Below are positions 1,646-24,506 of a DNA stretch of 30,347 bases, piece after piece (positions within the stretch are counted from its first letter, which is position 1; each line of letters begins with the position of its first letter). A model generated the notes under the pieces. The model saw only the letters and a list, made by a program, of their open reading frames with translations. It ran no database searches and was not told where the DNA came from. The DNA comes from a virus: positions 1 to 30,347 of the IMG/VR virus record IMGVR_UViG_3300019755_000131, one strand, 5' to 3'. The translations under genes were made by a program, and so were the position numbers.

Positions 1646-2299
1646 TTACCTTTGTATTGTTAATGTTTTCATACCAAGTACTTGTAGTGGTACTTGTGTA
1701 TCATTTGGATCATACGCTTTAGTATCATATTTAATGTTGTCACTCTTGATATCTATAGTACCATCAAGATTAAACTGTAATCTTTTTATGAGTATTTGAC
1801 CATGAAGTTGAATAGCATATATGCCATCTACTCCATTTGTTTTTGTCTCATCTATGATGACATGATCTCCTGATTGTAAAGTAGGATACATACTATCTCC
1901 ATCTACCTCTATAATCTTAATCTTTTTGATATCTGGAGCAGTTCTAAAAAATGCTTTGTCTAAAACTATTTTATCAATAACTTCTACTTCATAATTATAT
2001 ATCCCATCCCCTGCAGCTGCTTTAACATTTAAAACATCAATTTCATAGCCATGATTATTTGATGAAGTTGTTGATTTTTCATTATTTAAAAACATCTCGC
2101 CTTTTCCTGTCAATAGCCACCATGAATTAATAAGGAATTTTTCCTGTAATAGTTCTATCTCTTTTGATTTTAACTCTTTAACTTTGCCTCTTTCAATATC
2201 TTGGACTCTTGAAAATGGTAAATTTGCTAATTCTGATAAATCTCTTTGAGTATCCATTTTAAGGGCTTTTCTAAGCTTTTTTATTCTTTCTGATAACAA
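1646..2299 (-). CDS. Phage repressor, XRE HTH plus S24 peptidase domain
   Basis: A 217-residue protein with an N-terminal helix-turn-helix (about residues 3-55) and a C-terminal LexA/CI-type S24 domain. The catalytic pair is visible: Ser136 in GDSMYPT and Lys172 in ILIKRLQ, spaced 36 residues as in LexA relatives. The linker KAAAGDG holds a probable Ala96-Gly97 self-cleavage site. The start is TTG at 2297-2299: the HTH begins at once with LSERIKKLRKALK, and an AAGGAA site lies six nt upstream, whereas the first in-frame ATG (residue 15) would cut the HTH. It maintains lysogeny by binding operators in 2300-2360 and is likely inactivated by RecA-stimulated self-cleavage. Confidence 0.9.
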   Translation of the reverse strand: MLSERIKKLRKALKMDTQRDLSELANLPFSRVQDIERGKVKELKSKEIELLQEKFLINSWWLLTGKGEMFLNNEKSTTSSNNHGYEIDVLNVKAAAGDGIYNYEVEVIDKIVLDKAFFRTAPDIKKIKIIEVDGDSMYPTLQSGDHVIIDETKTNGVDGIYAIQLHGQILIKRLQFNLDGTIDIKSDNIKYDTKAYDPNDTQVPLQVLGMKTLTIQR

Positions 2300-2313: not shown

Positions 2314-2357
2314 ACGGAAAATATCCTTATTTGTCTTGACAAATAGGAAAAATTCCT
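2314..2357. promoter_or_regulatory. Operator-like sites of the immunity region
   Basis: Two similar 11-bp boxes, GGAAAATATCC (2316-2326) and GGAAAAATTCC (2346-2356), lie 30 bp apart, about three helical turns. The second lies in the spacer of the early promoter. A separate palindrome ATTTGTC-TT-GACAAAT (2329-2344) covers the -35 box. These are the best candidates for repressor and Ner-like binding sites; which protein binds which is not decidable from sequence. Confidence 0.55.
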
Positions 2358-2364
2358 TTATACT
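2336..2364 (+). promoter_or_regulatory. Rightward early promoter
   Basis: TTGACA (2336-2341), a 17-nt spacer and TATACT (2359-2364) make a near-consensus sigma-70 promoter pointing into the transposition operon. Its position opposite the repressor gene corresponds to the early promoter of Mu. Operator-like sites overlap both the -35 box and the spacer, which fits tight repression in the lysogen. Confidence 0.75.
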
Positions 2365-2437: not shown

Positions 2438-2438
2438 G

Positions 2439-2484
2439 CACTACATAAACCTTTTAAGGTTTAGTAGTGTCGGCATTTAGTGCC
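2439..2484 (+). repeat. Two-hairpin RNA element, copy A
   Basis: First hairpin: CACTAC, a bulged A, TAAACCT, loop TTTA, AGGTTTA, GTAGTG (2439-2469). Second hairpin: GGCA, loop TTTAG, TGCC (2472-2484). The same arrangement recurs at 8396-8442 and 20510-20556. This copy differs from the other two in that no Shine-Dalgarno sequence or gene follows it; it lies inside the long early leader. Its outermost pair is C-G where the other copies have T-A, a paired change. Confidence 0.7.
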
Positions 2485-2827
2485 AGATGTTCTATTTAAA
2501 ACATACTGTTAAAAAACCTCTATAGCGAAGTAGCTGATGGAAAAGTGAAAGGTTATGTAATCTTAGTGGAACAATGAAATATAACATTGGAGGGGCTGTC
2601 TTAAATGATGGCTAAATATTGAGGTGTGCATAGAGTACCAAGAAAAGAAAAGCTCTAGAACTATATAGAAATATTTAGTTAAGCCACTTATATAAATGGA
2701 GGTCTATTTGTAAGTTACTTCCCTGCATGAAAGTATGTATAAGAACAATAGATAAGTGGTTTTATTAAGTATTTATGTTTGAGTTACTTTATAAGTAGTT
2801 CAATAATGAATATGAAAGGGGCAAAAG

Positions 2828-3211: not shown

Positions 3212-5305
3212 ATGGAATTTACAGAAAAGAAACTAGTTGACCTTTTAGACATAAGTCAACCAGCTTTATTTAAAGCTCTAAAGAAAGTTGATTATGAACT
3301 CAAACAAATAGAAGGCTCAACTAAAAAAGTCAAACACTACAAGCTAGAAGATTTACCTGAGCGATACATTGAAAAGTTAAAAGCAAAAGGTATAGAGATC
3401 GATGTTAAAAAAGATACTAACATTTCAAAAGCAAATTTCACACAAACTTATCTTTTGGCTACTCCTATAAAACAAAAAGTAGCTGTATTAAAGTGTAGAT
3501 TGATTGAGTTTTATTTGAAACGAGATGGTACTTTGAATCAAAAAGATTGGTTAAAACAAACTTTAAAAAATGATATAGAGTTTGAAGAACTTGGAGCTGT
3601 ATCTATAAAACAACTAAATGATTGGCTTGGTAAATACAATATTGCAAAAGCTAAAAAGTCGAATTTAGTTGAATGTTTTATAGATACAAGAGGTGCTAAA
3701 AAAGGTGTCAAAGCTTTAGATGAGATACAGCAAGAAACAGCGATACGATATTTTCTAAAAGCTAACCGTCCTGTTATATCTGAAGTACATAGAAATATGT
3801 GTCATACCTTTGGAGATACGATGCCTAGCTATGATGTCCTCAATAACTTTTATGCTCAATGGAAACATCAAAACCCAGTATTGTATGAGTTTAGTAAATC
3901 ACCTGATTCTGCTAAGAATAAATATCTAGCAGCTTATGGAGATATGAGTGCTAGGGCGAAATATCGTAATCATTTTGTAGAACTAGATAGTACACCAGCT
4001 GATGTGATTTGTGATGATGGAAAAAGATATGCAATCATAGCTGCTATTGATGTACATACTAGAAGAGTAATTTTCCACGTAAGTGAAACATCAAGCTCCT
4101 ATTCTATATCTCAACTTTTGCGAAAGTATATTTTAAAGCTGGGTATTCCTGAAAATGTAGTTATAGATAATGGTAAGGATTACACTTCAAATCATTTTCA
4201 AAGTATCTGTTTAAATCTTGGAATAAACATGGATGTAGTTCCACCATTTAGTGGAGAATGTAAACCACATGTTGAGAGAGTTTTTGGAACATTATCACGA
4301 GAATTATTTGAACAAATACCTGGTTACATTGGACACAATGTAGGACAAAGAAGTGAGATACAAGCTAGAAAATCATTTTCTCATAAAATCTTATCTCAAG
4401 AAAAATGGAGAGAAGAACAAAAGCATAAATCTAAAGAAGAAAAAGATGCATGGAGAGATGCTTGGAAGTTTAAAAAAGAAAACTTAGGACTAGAACTTAC
4501 CATCTTATTGAGTCCTGATGAGTTGCAACTTTGGTGTGATAACTGGGCAAATAAGATGTATGAAACAAGAGTTCATAGAGGTCTGAAGTCTAAACCAATA
4601 GATAAATGGAATGCACAGATTACACCAGTTGAATCTATAGGTGATAAACGAATGTTAGATTTACTTTTAGGTGAAAGTAGTATTCGTAAAGTTGGTAAAA
4701 AAGGTATCGCTTATGATGGCTGTCAATATGCTCATATGGACCTAGTGGAATATACAGGTAAAGCTGTATTTGTTATGGCTCCAAGTGATTTAGGTTTTAT
4801 TTTGGTTTATGATGAAAATATGCAGTTTATTTGTACAGCTGAAGATTTAGAGTTTATGGGTCAAGATAGACAAAAAGTCAAAGGTGCAAGACAAAAATCA
4901 CTAGCACTTATGCGAAAAATGAACAAAATTGTTCAAGAAGTAGCTGCTATAAAAGATGTAACTATCATAGATAGAATCGAAGCAATACAAGAAGAGATAA
5001 GCACACCAACTATTGCAGTTACAAAACATACAGCAATGGTAGATGCCTTACTTGAAAGCTCACCAATTATTGAGGCTATTGATAAAAAAGCTTTAGAAAA
5101 GTCCAATAAATACGACTTCAAAATCAAAGATGAAAACAATCAACCAACAAAAGTATTGGCAAGTGGACGCCCTATATTTAACAGTATGTATGACCGATTT
5201 TTATGGGTGCTACAAAACAATGCTTGGACTGAAAAAGATGAGATACAAAGTAAGAAACATCCTGAGATGTTTAAGTTAGCAAAAGAAGAATTAAAAATAT
5301 CATAA
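3212..5305 (+). CDS. MuA-like DDE transposase
   Basis: A 697-residue protein, close to the length of MuA (663). The N-terminus (residues 1-55) is a MuA-type winged helix for end binding. The RNase H-fold core shows D259 in VELDSTPADV, D319 in VVIDNGKDY and E355 in KPHVERVFGT, giving a D-D-35-E spacing. A beta-barrel-like region follows (about 490-550), then a Lys-rich C-terminal part that in MuA contacts MuB and ClpX. It pairs and cuts the phage ends and joins them to target DNA for integration and replicative transposition. ATG 3212 has the excellent site GGAGGT. The next gene, the MuB-like ATPase, begins 11 bp later. Confidence 0.95.
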   Translation: MEFTEKKLVDLLDISQPALFKALKKVDYELKQIEGSTKKVKHYKLEDLPERYIEKLKAKGIEIDVKKDTNISKANFTQTYLLATPIKQKVAVLKCRLIEFYLKRDGTLNQKDWLKQTLKNDIEFEELGAVSIKQLNDWLGKYNIAKAKKSNLVECFIDTRGAKKGVKALDEIQQETAIRYFLKANRPVISEVHRNMCHTFGDTMPSYDVLNNFYAQWKHQNPVLYEFSKSPDSAKNKYLAAYGDMSARAKYRNHFVELDSTPADVICDDGKRYAIIAAIDVHTRRVIFHVSETSSSYSISQLLRKYILKLGIPENVVIDNGKDYTSNHFQSICLNLGINMDVVPPFSGECKPHVERVFGTLSRELFEQIPGYIGHNVGQRSEIQARKSFSHKILSQEKWREEQKHKSKEEKDAWRDAWKFKKENLGLELTILLSPDELQLWCDNWANKMYETRVHRGLKSKPIDKWNAQITPVESIGDKRMLDLLLGESSIRKVGKKGIAYDGCQYAHMDLVEYTGKAVFVMAPSDLGFILVYDENMQFICTAEDLEFMGQDRQKVKGARQKSLALMRKMNKIVQEVAAIKDVTIIDRIEAIQEEISTPTIAVTKHTAMVDALLESSPIIEAIDKKALEKSNKYDFKIKDENNQPTKVLASGRPIFNSMYDRFLWVLQNNAWTEKDEIQSKKHPEMFKLAKEELKIS

Positions 5306-5315
5306 AGGAATTAAA

Positions 5316-6020
5316 ATGGAATATGAATTTATATCAACAGATAATTATATAAGATGTTTAGGAGTTATTAAAGAGCTTCAGAACTTACCAAGTCACTCAC
5401 ATAAGATGGCTTTGTTTTATGGAAAATTTGGACTAGGAAAATCAATATCAATAGGAAGATTAGCAACGGAAGAAAATGCAGCATTAGTAAGAACTCTTGG
5501 AACATGGACACCCAAGTCTATGTTATGTGATATATGTTTTGAGCTTGGACTTGATGAGACAGGGTCAGCTTCTACTTTACAACATAGAATCATAGATGAA
5601 CTAATAGAATCACCAAGACCTATAATTATAGATGAAGTAGACACCATCCAATCAAGTAAACATAAAGACTTACTTTTAATCATACGAGATATACATGATC
5701 TAGCTCAAACTCCTGTTTTGTTTACAGGGATGGAACAATGCATAAAACACTTTAAAAAAGATGCCCATTACTTTAGTAGATTTGTAAAAACAGTGAAGAT
5801 TTTACCAAACTCCAAAAGTGATATTGCTAAATATTGTAAAAGTACATCTATAGGAATAAGTGAAGATTTGATTGATTATTTTCATATGAAGTATGCAAAC
5901 TTACGACAAATAAAAACACTACTTATCAGGCTTGAAGAGTACTGTGAAAATAACGATTATGATAGTGCAAATATGGAGCTTTTAAAAGCCAGTCAAATTG
6001 AGAAACAGCATGACATCTAA
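5316..6020 (+). CDS. MuB-like AAA+ ATPase, target selection
   Basis: A 234-residue AAA+ ATPase with Walker A GKFGLGKS (residues 36-43) and Walker B PIIIDEVD (102-109). In Mu, MuB forms ATP-dependent filaments on target DNA, stimulates the transposase and gives target immunity. The protein is about 80 residues shorter than MuB (312) and starts almost at the AAA+ fold, so the N-terminal HTH domain of MuB is missing; HTH functions may sit in the next two genes. It directly follows the transposase and overlaps the next gene by 11 bp. Confidence 0.9.
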   Translation: MEYEFISTDNYIRCLGVIKELQNLPSHSHKMALFYGKFGLGKSISIGRLATEENAALVRTLGTWTPKSMLCDICFELGLDETGSASTLQHRIIDELIESPRPIIIDEVDTIQSSKHKDLLLIIRDIHDLAQTPVLFTGMEQCIKHFKKDAHYFSRFVKTVKILPNSKSDIAKYCKSTSIGISEDLIDYFHMKYANLRQIKTLLIRLEEYCENNDYDSANMELLKASQIEKQHDI

Positions 6021-8335: not shown

Positions 8336-8346
8336 TTTCATAGAGT

Positions 8347-8380
8347 TATGTCACCGACAGTAATGTCGGAGACATAGTTT
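8347..8380 (+). terminator. Strong hairpin after peptidase gene
   Basis: TATGTC-A-CCGACA, loop GTAA, TGTCGG-A-GACATA (8347-8376) forms a 12-bp stem with one A-A mismatch, and GTTTTA follows. This is the most GC-rich stem in the region and fits an intrinsic terminator after the peptidase gene. Confidence 0.65.
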
Positions 8381-8395
8381 TAGTGAGATTATCAG

Positions 8396-8442
8396 TACTA
8401 CATAAACCTTTTAGAGGTTTAGTAGTATCGGCATTTAGTGCC
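8396..8442 (+). repeat. Two-hairpin RNA element, copy B
   Basis: First hairpin TACTAC, bulged A, TAAACCT, loop TTTAG, AGGTTTA, GTAGTA (8396-8427); second hairpin GGCA-TTTAG-TGCC (8430-8442). The Shine-Dalgarno sequence AAAGGA begins three nt after the second hairpin and the start codon of the next gene follows at 8456. The placement suggests a 5' untranslated element that protects the message or controls translation. Confidence 0.75.
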
Positions 8443-8455
8443 AGAAAGGAAAATT

Positions 8456-10585: not shown

Positions 10586-10993
10586 ATGACAAAACCCCAA
10601 GAAAAATATAAAAAACAACTCATACAGAAAATTCAGATAAATAAGAAAAATGTATTTTTAGATGATGAAGAACGAAAAGAGTTTATACTCTCAAGATTTG
10701 GAGTAACATCCACTACAAAGATGAATATAGATCAACTCAAATTACTTTTAGATTTTTGCTATAGAAAAGTGAGTGATATTCCTTTGTACGAAAAGATTGA
10801 AGATAAAGATAAAATCACTTTTGTTCAAAAAGAAAAAATATGGATGCTCTGGAAAGAAAAAGCTAGAGATAAAAGTGAAGCAGCATTGCTCAATTTTGCT
10901 TCAAAAATAGCACAATATAACATTACAAGCCTTGATAATCTACTCAAAGGTAAAGCTACTAAACTTATAGTGGCACTAAATAGATTGCATTAA
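10586..10993 (+). CDS. gemA: GemA-like protein (Mu gp16, DUF1018)
   Basis: A 135-residue protein with the GemA layout: a basic N-terminus followed by a helical part, the middle TTKMNIDQLKLLLDF segment, and a C-terminal half with KIWMLWKEKARDKSEAALLNF and a closing KLIVALNRLH helix. In Mu, GemA (gp16) is an early protein that changes host gene expression and DNA supercoiling. ATG 10586 follows AAAAGGA. It is the last gene before a strong terminator, which marks the end of the early/middle block. Confidence 0.8.
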   Translation: MTKPQEKYKKQLIQKIQINKKNVFLDDEERKEFILSRFGVTSTTKMNIDQLKLLLDFCYRKVSDIPLYEKIEDKDKITFVQKEKIWMLWKEKARDKSEAALLNFASKIAQYNITSLDNLLKGKATKLIVALNRLH

Positions 10994-11145: not shown

Positions 11146-11201
11146 ATAATGCAAGTTAATTTTAAGTTAATTTGCATTATGCAATACTTTTATGCTATCA
11201 T
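11146..11201 (+). promoter_or_regulatory. Late promoter with inverted-repeat operator
   Basis: ATAATGCAA (11146-11154) and TTGCATTAT (11172-11180) form a perfect 9-bp inverted repeat. A direct repeat of AAGTTAATTT lies between the arms, and an overlapping palindrome TTGCAT-T-ATGCAA is at 11172-11184. TTGCAT (11172-11177) with TATCAT (11196-11201) at 18-nt spacing is a plausible promoter for the late genes, so a protein on the repeat would touch the -35 region as activator or repressor. The rest of 10994-11145 holds the terminator and the possible leftward peptide. Confidence 0.55.
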
Positions 11202-11229
11202 TTCAAAAATCTATATGAAAGGTGTGTAT

Positions 11230-11448
11230 ATGTTATGTCCTAAATGTGCAGGTAAAACTAAAGTAAACGGAACGGTTAAAGGTGAGACTGTAGATAGATT
11301 TAGAATATGCACATCTTGTGGTTTTACATTTCAGACAGTTGAGGCTGTTACATTTGACAACGCTTGGAGAGATCATGCAAAAAGAGCTTACGACACAAAT
11401 CATAAAATCGAAAATTACAGACAAGAAAACTTTAACTTCGCTAGTTGA
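11230..11448 (+). CDS. Zinc-ribbon protein, candidate late regulator
   Basis: A 72-residue protein beginning MLCPKCAGKTKV and continuing to RFRICTSCGFTFQTVEAV: two CxxC pairs in a zinc ribbon that resembles the N-terminal ribbon of NrdR and, in spacing and the F-T-E-V tail, the Ogr/Delta late activators of P2-like phages. ATG 11230 is used because AAAGG lies seven nt upstream. It is the first gene after the late promoter region. No Mor or C homologue of Mu is seen, so it may take that place; this is inference. Confidence 0.65.
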   Translation: MLCPKCAGKTKVNGTVKGETVDRFRICTSCGFTFQTVEAVTFDNAWRDHAKRAYDTNHKIENYRQENFNFAS

Positions 11449-13698: not shown

Positions 13699-15285
13699 CT
13701 ATAGAATAATAGCTCCACCTTTCCCTTCTTCATCCTCTTCTCCACGTTCTAAAATATCTAGCCTTTTAGCTGCTAAAGCTAAAGACCAAAACCTATCTGC
13801 ATGACCATGTATATTTCTATCTGCATCATATAACATTCTTTTTAAACCAGCTTTTCTTTTGATAGCATGAATATCAGCAATGAGTACAGGATCGTTTGGA
13901 ATGGTTATCAACTTCTCTTCAAACATCTTCTTTAAATTTAAAACCATAAACTCTTTAGAACTAGCTGTGAAGTATACGCCTTCAGCTTGGCTAGGAAATT
14001 CACTCTCCATAGTCTCAGCTATATCTCTTCCTATTCCTGTCATATCTATTCTGATATTTGACTTTTTAAATACTCTTAAATGATCTCTTAAAACTGTTTT
14101 TTGAGACTCAAATTTCATCTTTTCATATACATCTTGAATAGCAAGTGTGTATCTTTTCTCAACCAAATCCAAACAACTCAAACTTGATAAATCTTTTACA
14201 CGACCTATATCATAACCACTCCAAAGTACATTTTGTAAATTGGGTGTATAGTAACTATAATCTTTAACACAAGATTTAATAAGTGATATAGGAAAGAAAG
14301 AACTATCATCATCTACAAACTGACACTCATACATCATAGCCCAGCTGTCTTCATCAAATAGGTCTTTTAGTATTTGAATATCTACATCAAGACCATCTTT
14401 AACAGCATCAGTAATAGTTGTAATATGCCTAGAAAACATATAAAATTTAACATCATCTACACAAAGCTTATGAAATAAACTATCCTGAACAAAGGGAGTA
14501 CTTAAAATAGTAATTCTAGCTTTTGTTTCACCAGCTTTTACAGATGTAATAGATGGAATAAATGCTTCCCATATTCTTTTAGGATTTAAGTACCAAGCAA
14601 ACTCATCCATCCAAACACTTCCTGAGAACCCTTGTATAGTTCTAAAGTTATTTGCAAAGATATAAATAGTAGCTCCTGAAGGTACCTTTATTTCAGAACT
14701 AGAACCACTCAACACGATATCTAATTTTTCAGCATGCTTTTGAATCTCGGCATACCACTTCAAAGCTTGTGTTTCAGAAGCTGAAAGTATCAGCTGATCC
14801 ATACCACTCATAGCATCTACTAAACACTCACCACTACATCCATAAGTAGCACCGATTTGTCTACTCTTTAACCAAACTCTAAAACGACTAGTATCATGCA
14901 TAAACTCTCTTTGATATTTATATAGACCATAATCTTCATCAAGCATCTTATCTCTGTATTCTTGAACTTCTTTAGAGTGGATGATATTTTGTTTTACTTT
15001 TTTGACTATTTTTTTAGACTTCTTTTCTAATCTTTCTTTTGATTTAGTAAGCATTGCTAACTTTCTGCTGTTTGCTTCTGTTGGAGCTCTTTTAGATAAA
15101 GTGGCTATTTGCTTATCAAGATTTTCTATAGATTCTTCATTTACATTTTTATCTTCACTTTTTTTAATCCATCCATAAAGGGTAGCTCTATTTTTGATTT
15201 TAAGGTCTTTGCAGATATCTGTGATACTTACACCAGCTTTTACTAAGTTAAGTGCTTCTTTTTTGAGTTCTTGTGTATAAGCCAT
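13699..15285 (-). CDS. Terminase large subunit, P2 gpP-like
   Basis: A 528-residue protein. Residues 1-45 form an HTH (SITDICKDLKIKNRATLYGW), and 50-105 are a basic coiled-coil linker. The ATPase has the P2-type Walker A KSRQIGAT (140-147) and Walker B VWMDEF (224-229). The RNase H nuclease has D359 (GYDIGR), D414 (IRIDMTGIG) and D497 (GHADRF). It cuts and pumps DNA into the prohead through the portal. AAAAGG precedes ATG 15285. It is second in a leftward pair with the portal. No separate small terminase subunit is evident; the N-terminal HTH may supply DNA recognition. Confidence 0.9.
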   Translation of the reverse strand: MAYTQELKKEALNLVKAGVSITDICKDLKIKNRATLYGWIKKSEDKNVNEESIENLDKQIATLSKRAPTEANSRKLAMLTKSKERLEKKSKKIVKKVKQNIIHSKEVQEYRDKMLDEDYGLYKYQREFMHDTSRFRVWLKSRQIGATYGCSGECLVDAMSGMDQLILSASETQALKWYAEIQKHAEKLDIVLSGSSSEIKVPSGATIYIFANNFRTIQGFSGSVWMDEFAWYLNPKRIWEAFIPSITSVKAGETKARITILSTPFVQDSLFHKLCVDDVKFYMFSRHITTITDAVKDGLDVDIQILKDLFDEDSWAMMYECQFVDDDSSFFPISLIKSCVKDYSYYTPNLQNVLWSGYDIGRVKDLSSLSCLDLVEKRYTLAIQDVYEKMKFESQKTVLRDHLRVFKKSNIRIDMTGIGRDIAETMESEFPSQAEGVYFTASSKEFMVLNLKKMFEEKLITIPNDPVLIADIHAIKRKAGLKRMLYDADRNIHGHADRFWSLALAAKRLDILERGEEDEEGKGGAIIL

Positions 15286-15342
15286 TATTTAGCCTTTTAT
15301 TTGTTTAGACGATACATTAATCGAATAAAAATAGTTTTGAGT

Positions 15343-15363
15343 TTTTAAACGGGTTTTAAACGG
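15343..15363. repeat. Short direct repeat TTTTAAACGG x2
   Basis: The 10-bp unit TTTTAAACGG occurs twice (15343-15352, 15354-15363) just before the terminase gene on the leftward strand, in the 93-bp gap after the portal gene. It may be a protein-binding site or simple slippage. Confidence 0.4.
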
Positions 15364-15378
15364 CATAGAAAACATATT

Positions 15379-16437
15379 TTATTTATTTCCTATCCCTAAA
15401 AGTTCTCTTGCTTCTGTTTGAGATACAATATCTCTATCTACAAGATTTGTAACAAGATCGCTATCATCTTTAAAGTTTGTTACATCAAGCTCTTCAATTT
15501 CTAAATCAATCCCTATATTTTTAAAGAATCCCTCAACTCTTCTTATTTTTGGTTTCATAACCACTTGGTTAAAAGAATGAAGTTGATCTATAAGTTCTCT
15601 TCCCCCACCCAGCCCACCAGCTGTCATAACTCCAGCTAATCTGGGAGGTACTCCATGAGCTGCTATAATTTCATCACGTCCTACATTTTTGAGTTTCTCA
15701 AAACTCATATCTTCAATACCATCAAGTTTTTCTAATCGTATTTTTGCAGGAGGAGTTCCCTCTTTACTTTTCCCTGTATACATCAAAAGTGATTTATGAG
15801 AATTTTCATAACCTTTGTAATTATCCGAAAAAAATGTCTTAAAAGCTTTTTGCTGCTCTACATTTGGTGCTGAATTTTCAAACACAATTCCAAAGCCTGG
15901 TCTAGCTCCATTTGTAAAAAAAGTACTATTATAAGTATCTGCTTGATTTAAAGTATTGATTTGTTTTAGAACTGTTAAATAATCAGGCTCTCCATAATAC
16001 TTTCCACTAGGGCTATAATATTTTAAATGGTACCCATCAAGTTTTAGAGCATCATCATTTGTTGTAAGTTGATAGATCTCTTTGTCTTTATTTAACCTAC
16101 CTTGATAACCCAATATATGATGAAGATGAAACTCTTTAGTAGTACCAGCTTTTTCCATGAATGCATTCCCATACATCTCTAAATCACAACACACCGCAAA
16201 TAGAAAATCACTTATAAATTCAGATGATGGTAAATATTTATCTAAGTTTGTAGACTTCACTTGTGATAAAAGTCCAGCTTTTAATTTAATACTTCTTTGA
16301 TGATAGACATTGAAATAGTAATACTTTAGAAGTCCATTAAAATCTATAAAAGGATTTATGGTTCCATTTGGACTTAACGTGTCTTTATCTATATATTGTT
16401 TTGATTTTGTAGCACCTTTTAGTATATGTTCATCCAT
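15379..16437 (-). CDS. Portal protein, P2 gpQ-like
   Basis: A 352-residue portal of the P2 gpQ/PBSX type. Markers are DFLFAVCCDLEMYGNAFMEK in the first third, the YYGEPDYLTVLKQINTLNQA region, and AAHGVPPRLAGV with the glycine-rich GGLGGGRE near residue 270. Twelve copies form the channel for DNA packaging and the head-tail joint. ATG 16437 is preferred to TTG 16440 because AAGGG is then six nt away. The pair portal-terminase runs leftward while scaffold and capsid run rightward from the same gap, as in the P2 head module, although in P2 the terminase is nearer the gap. Confidence 0.9.
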   Translation of the reverse strand: MDEHILKGATKSKQYIDKDTLSPNGTINPFIDFNGLLKYYYFNVYHQRSIKLKAGLLSQVKSTNLDKYLPSSEFISDFLFAVCCDLEMYGNAFMEKAGTTKEFHLHHILGYQGRLNKDKEIYQLTTNDDALKLDGYHLKYYSPSGKYYGEPDYLTVLKQINTLNQADTYNSTFFTNGARPGFGIVFENSAPNVEQQKAFKTFFSDNYKGYENSHKSLLMYTGKSKEGTPPAKIRLEKLDGIEDMSFEKLKNVGRDEIIAAHGVPPRLAGVMTAGGLGGGRELIDQLHSFNQVVMKPKIRRVEGFFKNIGIDLEIEELDVTNFKDDSDLVTNLVDRDIVSQTEARELLGIGNK

Positions 16438-16440
16438 CAA

Positions 16441-16595
16441 ATTCCCTTCATTTCATACCACATAAACCTTTTAAGGTTCAGATACCCAATACTAATATAA
16501 AAGATTTTTTTAATCACTCTAAATACTCATATATGGAGTGTTTTAAAGTTTTGAAATTGTCATAATAGTGGAGTAAATTTAAAGAAAGGAACACG
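16441..16595. promoter_or_regulatory. Divergent late control region
   Basis: The 155-bp gap between the leftward portal and the rightward scaffold gene must hold two divergent promoters. It contains a decayed copy of the RNA element (16457-16482: the first hairpin core is present, the outer stem and second hairpin are lost), a run of T (16504-16511) and an inverted repeat CACTC...GAGTG around ACTCATATATGGAGT. A CATAAT box near 16561 could be a -10 for the rightward genes. No confident -35 is visible. Confidence 0.4.
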
Positions 16596-20277: not shown

Positions 20278-20519
20278 AGAGTGTCATAGCTTACATAAAA
20301 ACACTTGGAAAAGATAACGGAATATTTTCGTATGAGTTAGAAACTAATTATGAATATATTTTGTTTGATATATATCAAACATCTCTAAAAAACAATGGAT
20401 TTGGGGTAGAGATAAGCTATGAGATAGTTAAAGATTATTGTAAAAAATATAAGTTTGATTCTATAGATATATATAAAATCATGAAAAGAATACTAAGTAA
20501 AGTTAATAGTACTACATAA
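19966..20519 (+). CDS. Tail chaperone, -1 frameshift fusion (gpGT-like)
   Basis: A -1 shift at GGGAAAG joins the short form to an overlapping frame without its own start, which runs from GCT at 20259 to TAA at 20517-20519. The fusion is 184 residues. The added part begins AQEESIKSVIAYIKTLGKDN and ends KRILSKVNSTT, a helical T-domain. In lambda the T part binds the tail tube protein, while G binds the tape measure. Without the shift, 240 nt of open frame would be unused, which strongly favours a real product. The stop codon falls inside RNA element copy C. Confidence 0.85.
20253..20259 (+). other. Programmed -1 ribosomal frameshift site GGGAAAG
   Basis: The heptamer is read G-GGA-AAG in the zero frame (ATG GGA AAG) and GGG-AAA after a -1 slip, the X-XXY-YYZ rule. 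It is the same heptamer as in the lambda G/T gene. No obvious strong downstream hairpin is seen. Confidence 0.85.
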
Positions 20520-20556
20520 ATCTTTTTAAGATTTAGTAGTATCGCCATATAGTGGT
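20510..20556 (+). repeat. Two-hairpin RNA element, copy C
   Basis: First hairpin TACTAC, bulged A, TAAATCTT, loop TTT, AAGATTTA, GTAGTA (20510-20541); second hairpin GCCA-TATAG-TGGT (20544-20556). Compared with copy B, a C-G pair became T-A in the first stem and a G-C pair became C-G in the second, so pairing is kept while sequence changes. AAAAGGTG follows three nt later and the tape measure gene starts at 20574. The chaperone fusion's stop codon lies in the left arm. Confidence 0.75.
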
Positions 20557-20573
20557 AGAAAAGGTGATAGTAG

Positions 20574-23500
20574 ATGAATAAAGAATTAAAAATCAAAATT
20601 AAAGTTGACAAAGATACAGGTGCTGTAAAAGTTGTCGGTGATGAATTTGATACATTAAATACTAAAACCAAATCTGCATCTATAGGGATAAAAGATGTTA
20701 CAAAAAGTCTCGGTGGTATTGCTGCTGGTGTAGGTTCTATATATCTAATCAAAGAAGCATTTGAATTTGCTATAAAAAGTGGATTTTCTTTTAATAATTC
20801 TTTAGAACAATCAACTCAAGGGCTTACAGCTCTTACTGTTGCTACTAGCTCAAATATTTCAGCTCTTGGAAAACACTTAACTTTAACAGATAAATACTCA
20901 TTAGCAACTATAGAAGCTACAAAATCTGTAAAAGATTTACAAAAGATAAATGCAGATACTCCACATTCTTTAAATCAAACAAACCAAATTTATAAAGCTA
21001 TGTATGTATCTATGAAAAAAGCAGGTGCATCAAATAGTGAGATGATAAATATCACAAAAAAGATGTCAATAGCAGCAGGTAGTGCAGAAATAGAATTTAA
21101 TTCACTTCTTGCTGGTGTTGATGGACTTGCAACTGGAACTGTTCTAGCAAATAGCGACTTAGGGAGATTTTTAAGTGGACTTGGTCTTACAAATCAAGCT
21201 TTAAAAGAATCTGATGATGTAGTAAAACTTTTAGAAGATAGACTAAGTCAATTTAAAGCAGCAGATACAATGAATGTCGCTGTATCAAATCTTACAAATT
21301 CTTGGGATCAATTAGCTGGAACTATGACTGAAGATATATTTGAAGATGTTAAAGAAGGTGCAAAAGAATTATCTGGATTTTTAGATGATTTAAATAAAGA
21401 TGTAAAATTATTGAAATATTGGTTTGCTGAACCAGCAGATCTTAAAACACTTGATGATGTAGAAAATAAAATTGCAGATGTAACAAGAGCTCTGTCTGAA
21501 AATAACAGCAAAATAAAAGGTTCTTTTTTTGAAGATTTAGGGAATGGTAGAATATTTGGCGAAACTCATTATAAAAAGAATATTAAAGAATTAAATGAAG
21601 AGCTTACTAAACTTATTAAAAAAAGAAGTGAATTAATAGAAGACTCAGAAAAAAACAAAGATTCTTTAGTAGGTTCATCTTCAAATAAAAATACAGATAA
21701 AACTGTAAAACTAAGCATAAAAACAACTATGGATAGTGCAGCTAAAGAGTTTTACGCTCAGCAGGATAAATTAACTACTATAGAACAATCATTAAATATA
21801 ACTATAGAAGATGATCCATTTTATGAAGTATCTTTAAAGTATGCAAATTTAAGAGATACTGTAGCTTTAAATCCATTACATACTCAAGTGCAATTAGATC
21901 TAGTAGATGATGCATTGATTAATGAAATAAGTATTATAAGTGCAAAAAAGATAAAAATAGAAGCAGAATTAGAAATAGCAAATCTTGATAGTATGGACTC
22001 TATGACTGATTTACTTGACTTGCAATCCTCTTTAGCAGATAGTAGTGATCGCTGGGCTACAAACATCAAAGGAGTAAGTGGAGCATTACTTCAAGCTGGA
22101 AAATCATTTTCTGATATAGATAAAGACAAAAAGAAACGTGAAAGTGCAGATTTAAAAGCACAAAAGAAATATGCAAAAGCATACCTTGAAGCAAATGGAG
22201 ATGTATATAAAGAAAAAAAAGCATCATCTGAATTTGATGCTACACAATCAAAAATAAGAGAAAGTGAAATGGATAGTTATATCGGAGCATTTTCAAATCT
22301 TTCTGCTGCAGTTTCAAGCTATGGGGAACAAAGTTCAACAGCAGCTAAAGTTGCAATTGCTGCCGAGCAAGGTTTAGCAGTAGTACAAGGTGTACGTGCT
22401 GTTATTAGAGCATGGGGTGATCCTTATCCTTTAAATCTTGTAACAGTACCTTTAACTATGGCAGCTGTTGGTGGATTGCTAGGACAAATTGGAGCTAGTG
22501 GTGGTGGAGGTGGTTCTGCTCCTAAAGTTCCACAATCTGAAATAAATCAAGTCGGAATAGATAACCATTTTGAGCCTATGTTAGAAAAAGCGGATATCCA
22601 AATAGACCTGTTGGAAGCGATTAAGAAAAATGGTAGTGCAGAACAACTGACAATCGAAAAAACAAAAGTAGAATATGACTATGCTATGGCTACATACATA
22701 AATGAAATGACTTCAGATTTTAGAGAAGAAAAAGGGCTTCAAGGTCGATTAGTATCGAGATATGAAACACCTGAACAATGGGAAAATTATTTAAAACTTT
22801 TCGACAATCTAAATAGTAAATTTGGTGCAGACTTATGGACTTCTACAGAAAGAGAAGATGGTATTAAAGGGGAACAAGACGCAAGATTAAACAAAGATTT
22901 AATTCAAAGTAATGAGGACTTCTTGCGATATGTCGGTGTACTTTTCGACAACAATGCAGGATTTCTCGTAAATTGGGGTAGCGGAAATAATACAGCCGAA
23001 GAAAATAAGCTTTTAGGTGTAGAGAGAATTTTTGAAATGCAGAACCTAATGGCGGATTTTGCAAAAGGTTCTTTCGGCTCTTTGGAAAGTTTAGTTGACT
23101 ATAAAGAAGATGTAGAGGATATGTTTGACTCTATAACAAATACTAGTAAATATGCAGAACTAGAAACTAAAAAAGCATACGAAACTGTATCTTCTCTTAT
23201 AGGGGATAAAAGCTTCTCGTCTTTTATAGAAGAAAATATTTCTCTTATTAGAGAATTAGAAAACAGTTTTACTAATGCAGAATTAGAAAGTTTATTTTCT
23301 ACAAATCCTAAAGATTTCTTAAAACAACAAGATACACTTTATAAGCTAAACACACAACTTGGAACAGCATACGAAACAAACGATAAAGGACTTAGGGAGC
23401 TTATCAATAGCATGGATAGCTTTGAACTAGTAGCAGAAGCGATGGAGACTTCTGTTAATAATATAAACTCTTTTGTAGATAGTTTTAAAAACGATGAAGA

Positions 23501-24506
23501 GTTATTAGGAGATATGGCTTCAAATTTGGGTGTAGATGTTGCAACAAATATAGAAGAATTATCTTCACTATTTGAAAAGTTAGCTTCTGATACAGTTGGT
23601 TTAACAGATGCAGAAGCTGAGTTATTGTCAGCTAATAAATCTATTATTGAACAAACAAATGAATATGCAGATTCAATTTCTACACTTGAAGGTGTATTTA
23701 CATCTTTAGAAACAACAATAGATAAGTTACGTGGATATAGTCAAACAGCAGATGTGTCTTTAGCTAAATTTTATACTACTTTAAATACTGCTAAAGATTT
23801 TGATATAACAGATGAGGATGGATATGCATCTGTAATAAAAGACTTGGTATCAAGCTCAAATATCTTTAATAATACTGATCTATTTACGAGTACTGCAGAT
23901 ATGACTTATGCTCAGTTATCAGCTGCTAATCAATTAGAAGATTTAGAAATAGATACTAGAACTCAAATAGATTATTTAGCAGAGATCGAAGAAAATACAA
24001 GGATGACTTATGAGTCATTACTAGCTCAACTCAGTGATATAGGAAAATCTCTAGTTACAAATTCAACAACTTCTTCTAACACAAGAATACCTACAAACGA
24101 ACCTGTGTTATCTGAAAGAGAACAATATGTAAGAAGCTTATATCAAGATATTTTAGGAAGAGAAGGAGAGTTAACAGGTGTTGACTATTGGACAAGTAGT
24201 GATTTAACACGAGCTGAAATATCAAGCGGATTTTTAAACTCTGATGAGTATTTAAATAATAAAAAATATACAGCATTTGCAGAAGGTGGATTAATAAAAG
24301 GTGGACAAGGTGGAGTTTTTGGTCATATTGGTGAAGAAAGTCATGATGAACTTATCGTACCACTTAAAAATGATCCACTGCATATGAAAAAACTTTTACA
24401 AGAGATCCAATCTTTAAAGAATGAAGTTAGAAAAATGAGAGAAGATAATAATCATCATTCATCAAATATAGCAGAAAATACAAGAACAGGTAGGTTCAAT
24501 AAATGA
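20574..24506 (+). CDS. Tail tape measure protein
   Basis: A 1310-residue protein, by far the longest in the window. The N-terminal 550 residues are mostly helical with repeated SLxxLxxxL patterns. Hydrophobic segments lie at about 590-642 (VAIAAEQGLAVVQGV; VTVPLTMAAVGGLLGQ), followed by a SGGGGGS linker. After another long helical region, a DUF4214-like unit (about 1180-1229, with YVRSLYQDILGREGELTG and VDYWTSSDL) precedes FAEGGLIKGGQGGVFG, a motif typical of the C-terminal end of tape measures. It sets tail length: at about 0.15 nm per residue the tail would be near 200 nm. Translation starts just after RNA element copy C. Confidence 0.92.
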   Translation: MNKELKIKIKVDKDTGAVKVVGDEFDTLNTKTKSASIGIKDVTKSLGGIAAGVGSIYLIKEAFEFAIKSGFSFNNSLEQSTQGLTALTVATSSNISALGKHLTLTDKYSLATIEATKSVKDLQKINADTPHSLNQTNQIYKAMYVSMKKAGASNSEMINITKKMSIAAGSAEIEFNSLLAGVDGLATGTVLANSDLGRFLSGLGLTNQALKESDDVVKLLEDRLSQFKAADTMNVAVSNLTNSWDQLAGTMTEDIFEDVKEGAKELSGFLDDLNKDVKLLKYWFAEPADLKTLDDVENKIADVTRALSENNSKIKGSFFEDLGNGRIFGETHYKKNIKELNEELTKLIKKRSELIEDSEKNKDSLVGSSSNKNTDKTVKLSIKTTMDSAAKEFYAQQDKLTTIEQSLNITIEDDPFYEVSLKYANLRDTVALNPLHTQVQLDLVDDALINEISIISAKKIKIEAELEIANLDSMDSMTDLLDLQSSLADSSDRWATNIKGVSGALLQAGKSFSDIDKDKKKRESADLKAQKKYAKAYLEANGDVYKEKKASSEFDATQSKIRESEMDSYIGAFSNLSAAVSSYGEQSSTAAKVAIAAEQGLAVVQGVRAVIRAWGDPYPLNLVTVPLTMAAVGGLLGQIGASGGGGGSAPKVPQSEINQVGIDNHFEPMLEKADIQIDLLEAIKKNGSAEQLTIEKTKVEYDYAMATYINEMTSDFREEKGLQGRLVSRYETPEQWENYLKLFDNLNSKFGADLWTSTEREDGIKGEQDARLNKDLIQSNEDFLRYVGVLFDNNAGFLVNWGSGNNTAEENKLLGVERIFEMQNLMADFAKGSFGSLESLVDYKEDVEDMFDSITNTSKYAELETKKAYETVSSLIGDKSFSSFIEENISLIRELENSFTNAELESLFSTNPKDFLKQQDTLYKLNTQLGTAYETNDKGLRELINSMDSFELVAEAMETSVNNINSFVDSFKNDEELLGDMASNLGVDVATNIEELSSLFEKLASDTVGLTDAEAELLSANKSIIEQTNEYADSISTLEGVFTSLETTIDKLRGYSQTADVSLAKFYTTLNTAKDFDITDEDGYASVIKDLVSSSNIFNNTDLFTSTADMTYAQLSAANQLEDLEIDTRTQIDYLAEIEENTRMTYESLLAQLSDIGKSLVTNSTTSSNTRIPTNEPVLSEREQYVRSLYQDILGREGELTGVDYWTSSDLTRAEISSGFLNSDEYLNNKKYTAFAEGGLIKGGQGGVFGHIGEESHDELIVPLKNDPLHMKKLLQEIQSLKNEVRKMREDNNHHSSNIAENTRTGRFNK

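Follow-up and report, generated by a model that had tools for sequence, protein, structure and literature searches.

Two-hairpin elements of a Mu-like phage as probable members of a mobile palindromic repeat family of Campylobacterota

Relation to described palindromic repeats

Protein-coding palindromes are best known from Rickettsiales. RPEs are long stem-loops of 105–146 bp (PMC2229807; Ogata et al. 2000), and the repeat of Campylobacterota analysed here resembles them as a palindromic repeat that lies between genes and also in frame inside conserved protein genes. By that description it is nevertheless set apart from them: its unit has 48 nt and two hairpins instead of a single long palindrome of 105–146 bp, it belongs to another phylum, and it is also found in phages and a plasmid.

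A REP, as described by Di Nocera et al. (2013, PMC3733652), is one hairpin of 20–40 nt with a terminal GTAG or CGTC, and such repeats are reported for Sulfurovum NBC37-1. REPs share with the Campylobacterota repeat the short hairpins, the frequent position near gene ends or inside other palindromes and the presence of some copies in genes, and the CGTC type likewise occurs without a dedicated transposase. The Campylobacterota repeat differs in having two unequal hairpins rather than a single one of 20–40 nt, few copies and no terminal tag; nearly all copies begin with YAC... and end with ...AGA, and GTAG is present only within stem I, mainly in the phage subtype. GTAG-REPs flank a RAYT (Y1) gene, but here Y1 genes were found in 6 of 12 carriers, and the element was near none of the 12 Y1 loci sampled. 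Identity with a REP family of Sulfurovum NBC37-1 is unlikely. MITEs (Correia/NEMIS, ERIC, RUP; PMC2229807) are also non-autonomous dispersed repeats with structured transcripts, but no terminal inverted repeats enclosing the entire unit and no target-site duplication were found for the Campylobacterota repeat.

Taken together, the Campylobacterota repeat works most like the RPEs and REPs, and it departs from both in length, tag and number of hairpins. Literature searches, whose coverage was incomplete, returned no description of the element in Campylobacterota, and it is apparently a so far undescribed repeat family of about 48 letters. This agreed with the sequence-only reading of this DNA, which knew of no described element of such a form; in Rfam 15, no family reached the gathering score for the window or for six loci with the element. 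The Campylobacterota unit is much shorter than the Rickettsiales repeats and well bounded, with clean empty sites, an integron-like integrase hot spot and both phage and plasmid carriers. With it, one can test how tiny palindromic repeats move, and genes that have or lack an inserted two-hairpin leader are available as a natural series for comparison.

The window phage and its three copies

The window, that is, the whole stretch of 30,347 nt analysed here, comes from IMG/VR, where it is recorded as a virus, and belongs to a Mu-like transposable phage, which encodes DUF3164 in addition to the genes in Table 1. The window MuA protein as the sole query found no relative, unlike the terminase alignment, by which relatives were recovered. 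Near terminase relatives (83%) lie in Arcobacter MAGs, and the host of the phage is therefore probably in the Arcobacter group. The terminase and portal genes are oriented opposite to every neighbouring gene, and the relatives are arranged likewise.

Table 1. Coordinates of the element copies and of phage features in the window
Feature	Position	Strand	Remarks
CI-like repressor	1646-2299	-	
Likely early promoter, TTGACA-17-TATACT	2336-2364	+	consensus match only; about 70 nt upstream of copy 1
Copy 1	2438-2487	+	hairpin I 2438-2470, spacer C 2471, hairpin II 2472-2484, tail AGA 2485-2487; bulged A 2445; in early leader
MuA-type transposase	3212-5305		
TniB/MuB-like ATPase	5316-6020		
Copy 2	8395-8445	+	hairpin I 8395-8428, spacer C 8429, hairpin II 8430-8442, tail AGA 8443-8445; bulged A 8402
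Small gene, 69 aa	8456-8665	+	directly downstream of copy 2; homologue at the same place in L006
GemA	10586-10993		
Terminase and portal genes	13699-16440	-	
Partial copy or remnant	16457-16481	+	only the 5' arm and loop of hairpin I; score with model R1, 17 bits
Copy 3	20509-20559	+	hairpin I 20509-20542, spacer C 20543, hairpin II 20544-20556, tail AGA 20557-20559
Tail tape measure gene	20574-24506	+	directly downstream of copy 3

The sequence-only reading had placed three two-hairpin copies in this DNA, and all three are present on the + strand. In all of them, hairpin I (about 15 bp with a bulged A) is followed by one unpaired C, hairpin II (a 4-bp stem and a 5-nt loop, UUUAG or UAUAG) and AGA. 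The folding energies are -21.8, -20.9 and -16.4 kcal/mol (z -5.1 to -6.0), and 0 of 200 shuffles were as stable. The first-arm pattern has five matches in the window against 0.14 expected, and the model built from the copies (R1) found only the three full ones. The partial copy lies immediately upstream of where the portal gene begins and is oriented against that gene; L007 and L012 have it too.

A Shine-Dalgarno sequence beside the element had been noted for two copies, and this holds for copies 2 and 3, while copy 1 does not adjoin one. AAGGAAAATTATG directly follows the tail of copy 2. In copy 3, the upstream tail-chaperone-like frame ends at a stop codon within the element's ACATAA, and the tape measure gene follows downstream with AAAGG...ATG. 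Separately, the interval from the M15 peptidase gene to copy 2 contains a strong hairpin (ATGTCACCGACAGTAATGTCGGAGACAT, 8340-8380), which is not a consensus terminator.

Among the three window copies, 3 of 20 pairs changed on both sides in a compensatory way. The pairing through base changes that had been noticed in these copies extends well beyond them: in 43 distinct aligned copies, 89% of the cells pair against 74±1 in shuffles, double changes occur at 13 of 16 pairs, the covariation score reaches 0.41 (0.17 in shuffles), and slid-partner controls pair at most 46%. Fitting to the model biases the 43-copy alignment towards the structure; an alignment of 16 copies made with MAFFT (A7) gave the same result. 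Stem II varies among GGCA/TGCC, GCCA/TGGC, GTCA/TGAC, GGTA/TACC and GCGG/CCGC, with no change in its loop TTTAG or in the flanks TC...AGA. The stems thus covary, and the loops and flanks are nearly fixed.

Two details of the original description were narrowed by the relatives. The bulged A is conserved in the window copies but is not universal, being absent from L006:4155; likewise, the second stem with its 5-nt loop ending in TAG was confirmed here, but the loop is UUUAA in the relative L006a. In another copy (L100:1501-1570, the same as the L063 copy), the loop of hairpin I contains about 20 extra nt that fold by themselves (CCCTCAAGGGG), apparently a nested insertion.

Relatives in phages, a plasmid and chromosomes

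The 48-nt unit consensus is ACNNC-A-...TTTA...-GNNGT-RTC-GSCA-TTTAG-TGSC-AGA. Its carriers are Campylobacterota genomes with scattered copies, a Sulfurovum plasmid and Mu-like phages. Patterns and R1 located phage relatives in viral contigs (L005:8525-8475; L006:115-166 and 4155-4204), and the element of L007/L008 is the same as window copy 3. A phage with a Mu-type portal carries a copy antisense to its flanking genes (L052:4173-4122), in which the bulge is retained although a stem pair changes. The full phage copies are sense with their neighbouring genes in 9 of 10 cases. On the G423 chromosome, three sense copies lie in the early part of a Mu-like prophage, between its CI-like repressor and its transposase, each within a 207-nt leader unit repeated three times. 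The region with three 207-nt units in the early region of a Mu-like prophage (L131:11192-12900), beside small oppositely oriented genes, looks as if it were a cassette exchange site. The INPHARED phages that were searched contained no homologue.

Among chromosomes, R1 found divergent copies with stem I wholly rebuilt in a scan of 104 genomes of the Arcobacter MAG's family, and matches in 34 of 228 genomes of one family; the pattern search of 397 Campylobacterota genomes gave further chromosomal copies. We built a second model (R2) from 16 chromosomal copies and no phage sequence. R2 finds window copy 2 (E 3e-10), copy 1 (E 7e-7) and copy 3 (E 2e-3), as well as the L005, L006, L052 and L044 copies (E 1e-6 to 1e-10). 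Since a model without phage sequence still detects the window copies, the phage and chromosomal subfamilies are homologous. Under strict filters R2 matched 18 of the 397 Campylobacterota genomes. It matched none of 398 genomes of another phylum (that of an alphaproteobacterium), and in a count over 15 carriers it gave 1–11 copies per genome. The Sulfurovum mangrovi plasmid has the element in two places. The search for further covarying copies in related genomes, by which the sequence-only reading had proposed to be judged, was thus successful. Some candidates were discarded: the structure was absent from the pattern matches in L009-L011, those in L048, L050, L053, L054, L060 and L061 were chance matches to the short pattern, and L049/L051 scored 28 bits with R2 but have a different arrangement and were set aside.

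Insertion sites and possible roles

The element lies in frame inside genes for GDP-fucose synthase, RmlB, ManC, UDP-glucose dehydrogenase and integrases, and an epimerase gene also holds it. These identities were taken from sequence, and three were confirmed against solved structures (GDP-fucose synthase 7anh; ManC 2qh5; RmlB 1bxk), with which the alignment gaps show the element as an extra 14–17 residues. Such copies occur on both strands and are open both ways (sense ..YALATGVSAFSAR.., antisense ..LALNADTPVAKAK..). One RmlB gene (L072:312-1721) has two copies; a further unrelated insertion of about 50 residues stands before RFHHISTDEVYG in the same gene, and nucleotide-sugar genes seem to collect insertions. 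The GDP-fucose synthase copies of four genomes are near the same motif, which may reflect a hot spot or inheritance. Tyrosine integrases (Pfam Phage_integrase), which we take to be of the integron type, carry copies at one and the same short stretch in six or more genomes. The homologous integrases of L064 and L070 have insertions 6 nt apart, each being the empty site of the other; L135, L151, L152 and L166 hold other integrase insertions.

Empty sites are also available outside coding sequence. In the filled kdsA genes (L162/L177, L175) the order is TATAAT, 14 nt, element and Shine-Dalgarno, while about 28 of 30 homologues are without the element and have the promoter TATAAT, about 15 nt and the Shine-Dalgarno sequence; the insert is a 48-nt unit placed exactly between promoter and Shine-Dalgarno. 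For phages, L005 is the empty site of L006:4155, upstream of a Zn-ribbon gene, and L019 that of window copy 3. No target-site duplication was found, and the kdsA and integrase comparisons need none.

These observations suggest that the window element very probably represents the A+T-rich subfamily, resident in phages, of a palindromic repeat of Campylobacterota that is mobile and non-autonomous, because the borders are fixed, genes carry it on both strands and homologues provide clean empty sites. Mobility is read here from presence and absence between species. On this reading the element is a repeat that roams among genomes, not an RNA switch dedicated to phages, and an RNA specific to phages only was dropped on account of the coding and antisense copies.

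The sequence-only reading had favoured a leader that stabilises messages or gates translation. We consider it doubtful that the element is such a dedicated 5' leader RNA of phages and some host genes, although several facts point that way. Other genomes also have the element right beside the Shine-Dalgarno sequence of unrelated genes: besides window copies 2 and 3, this is seen at kdsA (L162, L175), a small exported-protein gene (L075, L167), a parvulin-like gene (L163), L044 and L155, giving 8–9 such loci overall. In kdsA the element begins about 7 nt after the likely transcription start, and phage copies are almost all sense. However, many copies lie inside genes on either strand, the L052 copy is antisense, and most kdsA genes do without the element. 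The spacing from element to start codon varies from <10 to several hundred nt, which disfavours a translational gate of a fixed kind. Nor is it supported that the element is essentially a phage leader: the chromosomal copies are dispersed, some in coding sequence and some near terminators. Occurrence at random positions and on both strands had been named beforehand as an observation against the leader reading, and the chromosomal copies are distributed in this way. Use as a 5' leader in some genes is still plausible from the arrangement of these sites.

The early position of copy 1 recalls the put RNA of HK022, a close pair of stem-loops downstream of an early phage promoter (PMC9378689). The put RNA acts through the zinc-binding domain of the RNA polymerase beta' subunit, so that termination is suppressed. 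A put-like antiterminator, in which two stem-loops 1 nt apart and a bulge on the nascent RNA bind RNA polymerase early in an operon, would fit this two-stem anatomy, the distance of about 70 nt from the promoter to copy 1 and the early sense copies of the G423 prophage. It is most unlikely here: put has about 70 nt and long stems, the likeness shown is one of two-stem layout and not of sequence, the position after an early promoter applies to copy 1, no promoter-like site was found upstream of copies 2 and 3 on the + strand, and chromosomal copies inside genes as well as antisense copies would not have this role. The position of copies at module borders and the 207-nt repeated units of G423 beside opposed small genes could likewise indicate a DNA operator or a recombination linker between phage modules, which is very unlikely, as a double-stranded site needs neither a bulge nor covariation of stem II, and copies are present within host genes.

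For the mobile repeat, we suggest the following course. The unit comprises 48–50 nt in two unequal head-to-tail hairpins, with loops UUUA and UUUAG, the spacer RUC and the tail AGA. A folded single strand is recognised at REPs and at the ends of IS200/IS605. The homologous folding of both subfamilies suggests that here, too, a folded single strand may be recognised, by an enzyme supplied in trans, and that insertion would be clean, without target duplication. Phages and plasmids would carry the unit between hosts. Copies at gene borders would be tolerated because promoter, Shine-Dalgarno and reading frame are all spared, and upon transcription the repeat would become a two-hairpin 5' leader, for which some copies are perhaps kept.

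Some findings speak against the mobile repeat. The copy number is low, no transposase is linked to the element, and 6 of the 12 carriers lack Y1 genes; a Y1/RAYT protein was rejected as the mover for want of linkage. Most phage copies are in sense orientation at gene borders, and copies abutting the Shine-Dalgarno sequence are commoner than expected of blind insertion, which may reflect target preference, survivorship or real leader use. A bolder version, in which a mobile riboregulatory cassette has recurrently landed or been kept between transcription start and Shine-Dalgarno, giving the kdsA, parvulin-like and tape measure genes one two-hairpin leader read through the fixed UUUAG loops by one host or phage factor, is in our estimation unlikely.

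The surroundings of the chromosomal copies were also compared. Non-coding copies sit in the loops of hairpins that their flanks form, and this mutual pairing of the flanks was significant (20/5000 permutations when each context contributed one copy, 51/5000 on leaving out the nested group). It was not significant for phage-type copies (85/1000) or gene copies (373/1000); no preference for hairpin loops was seen at the window copies. Four copies in G235 and three in G120 have identical contexts, which are probably rRNA operons, as concluded for G235 because spurious antisense 23S-like reading frames lie there.

In the phages, an NrdR-like zinc-ribbon gene (11170-11445 of the window) is preceded by the palindrome TTGCATTATGCAA and a promoter-like sequence, both conserved in the window, L005 and L006; they are a possible late-gene regulator and its operator. 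A larger palindromic repeat (GTCG..GAACGACCTT / AAAGCGAAGCGATT..CGACGAT) surrounds seven copies (L066, L069, L110, L113, L117, L119, L120); it may be another repeat family, or the whole may be a compound element.
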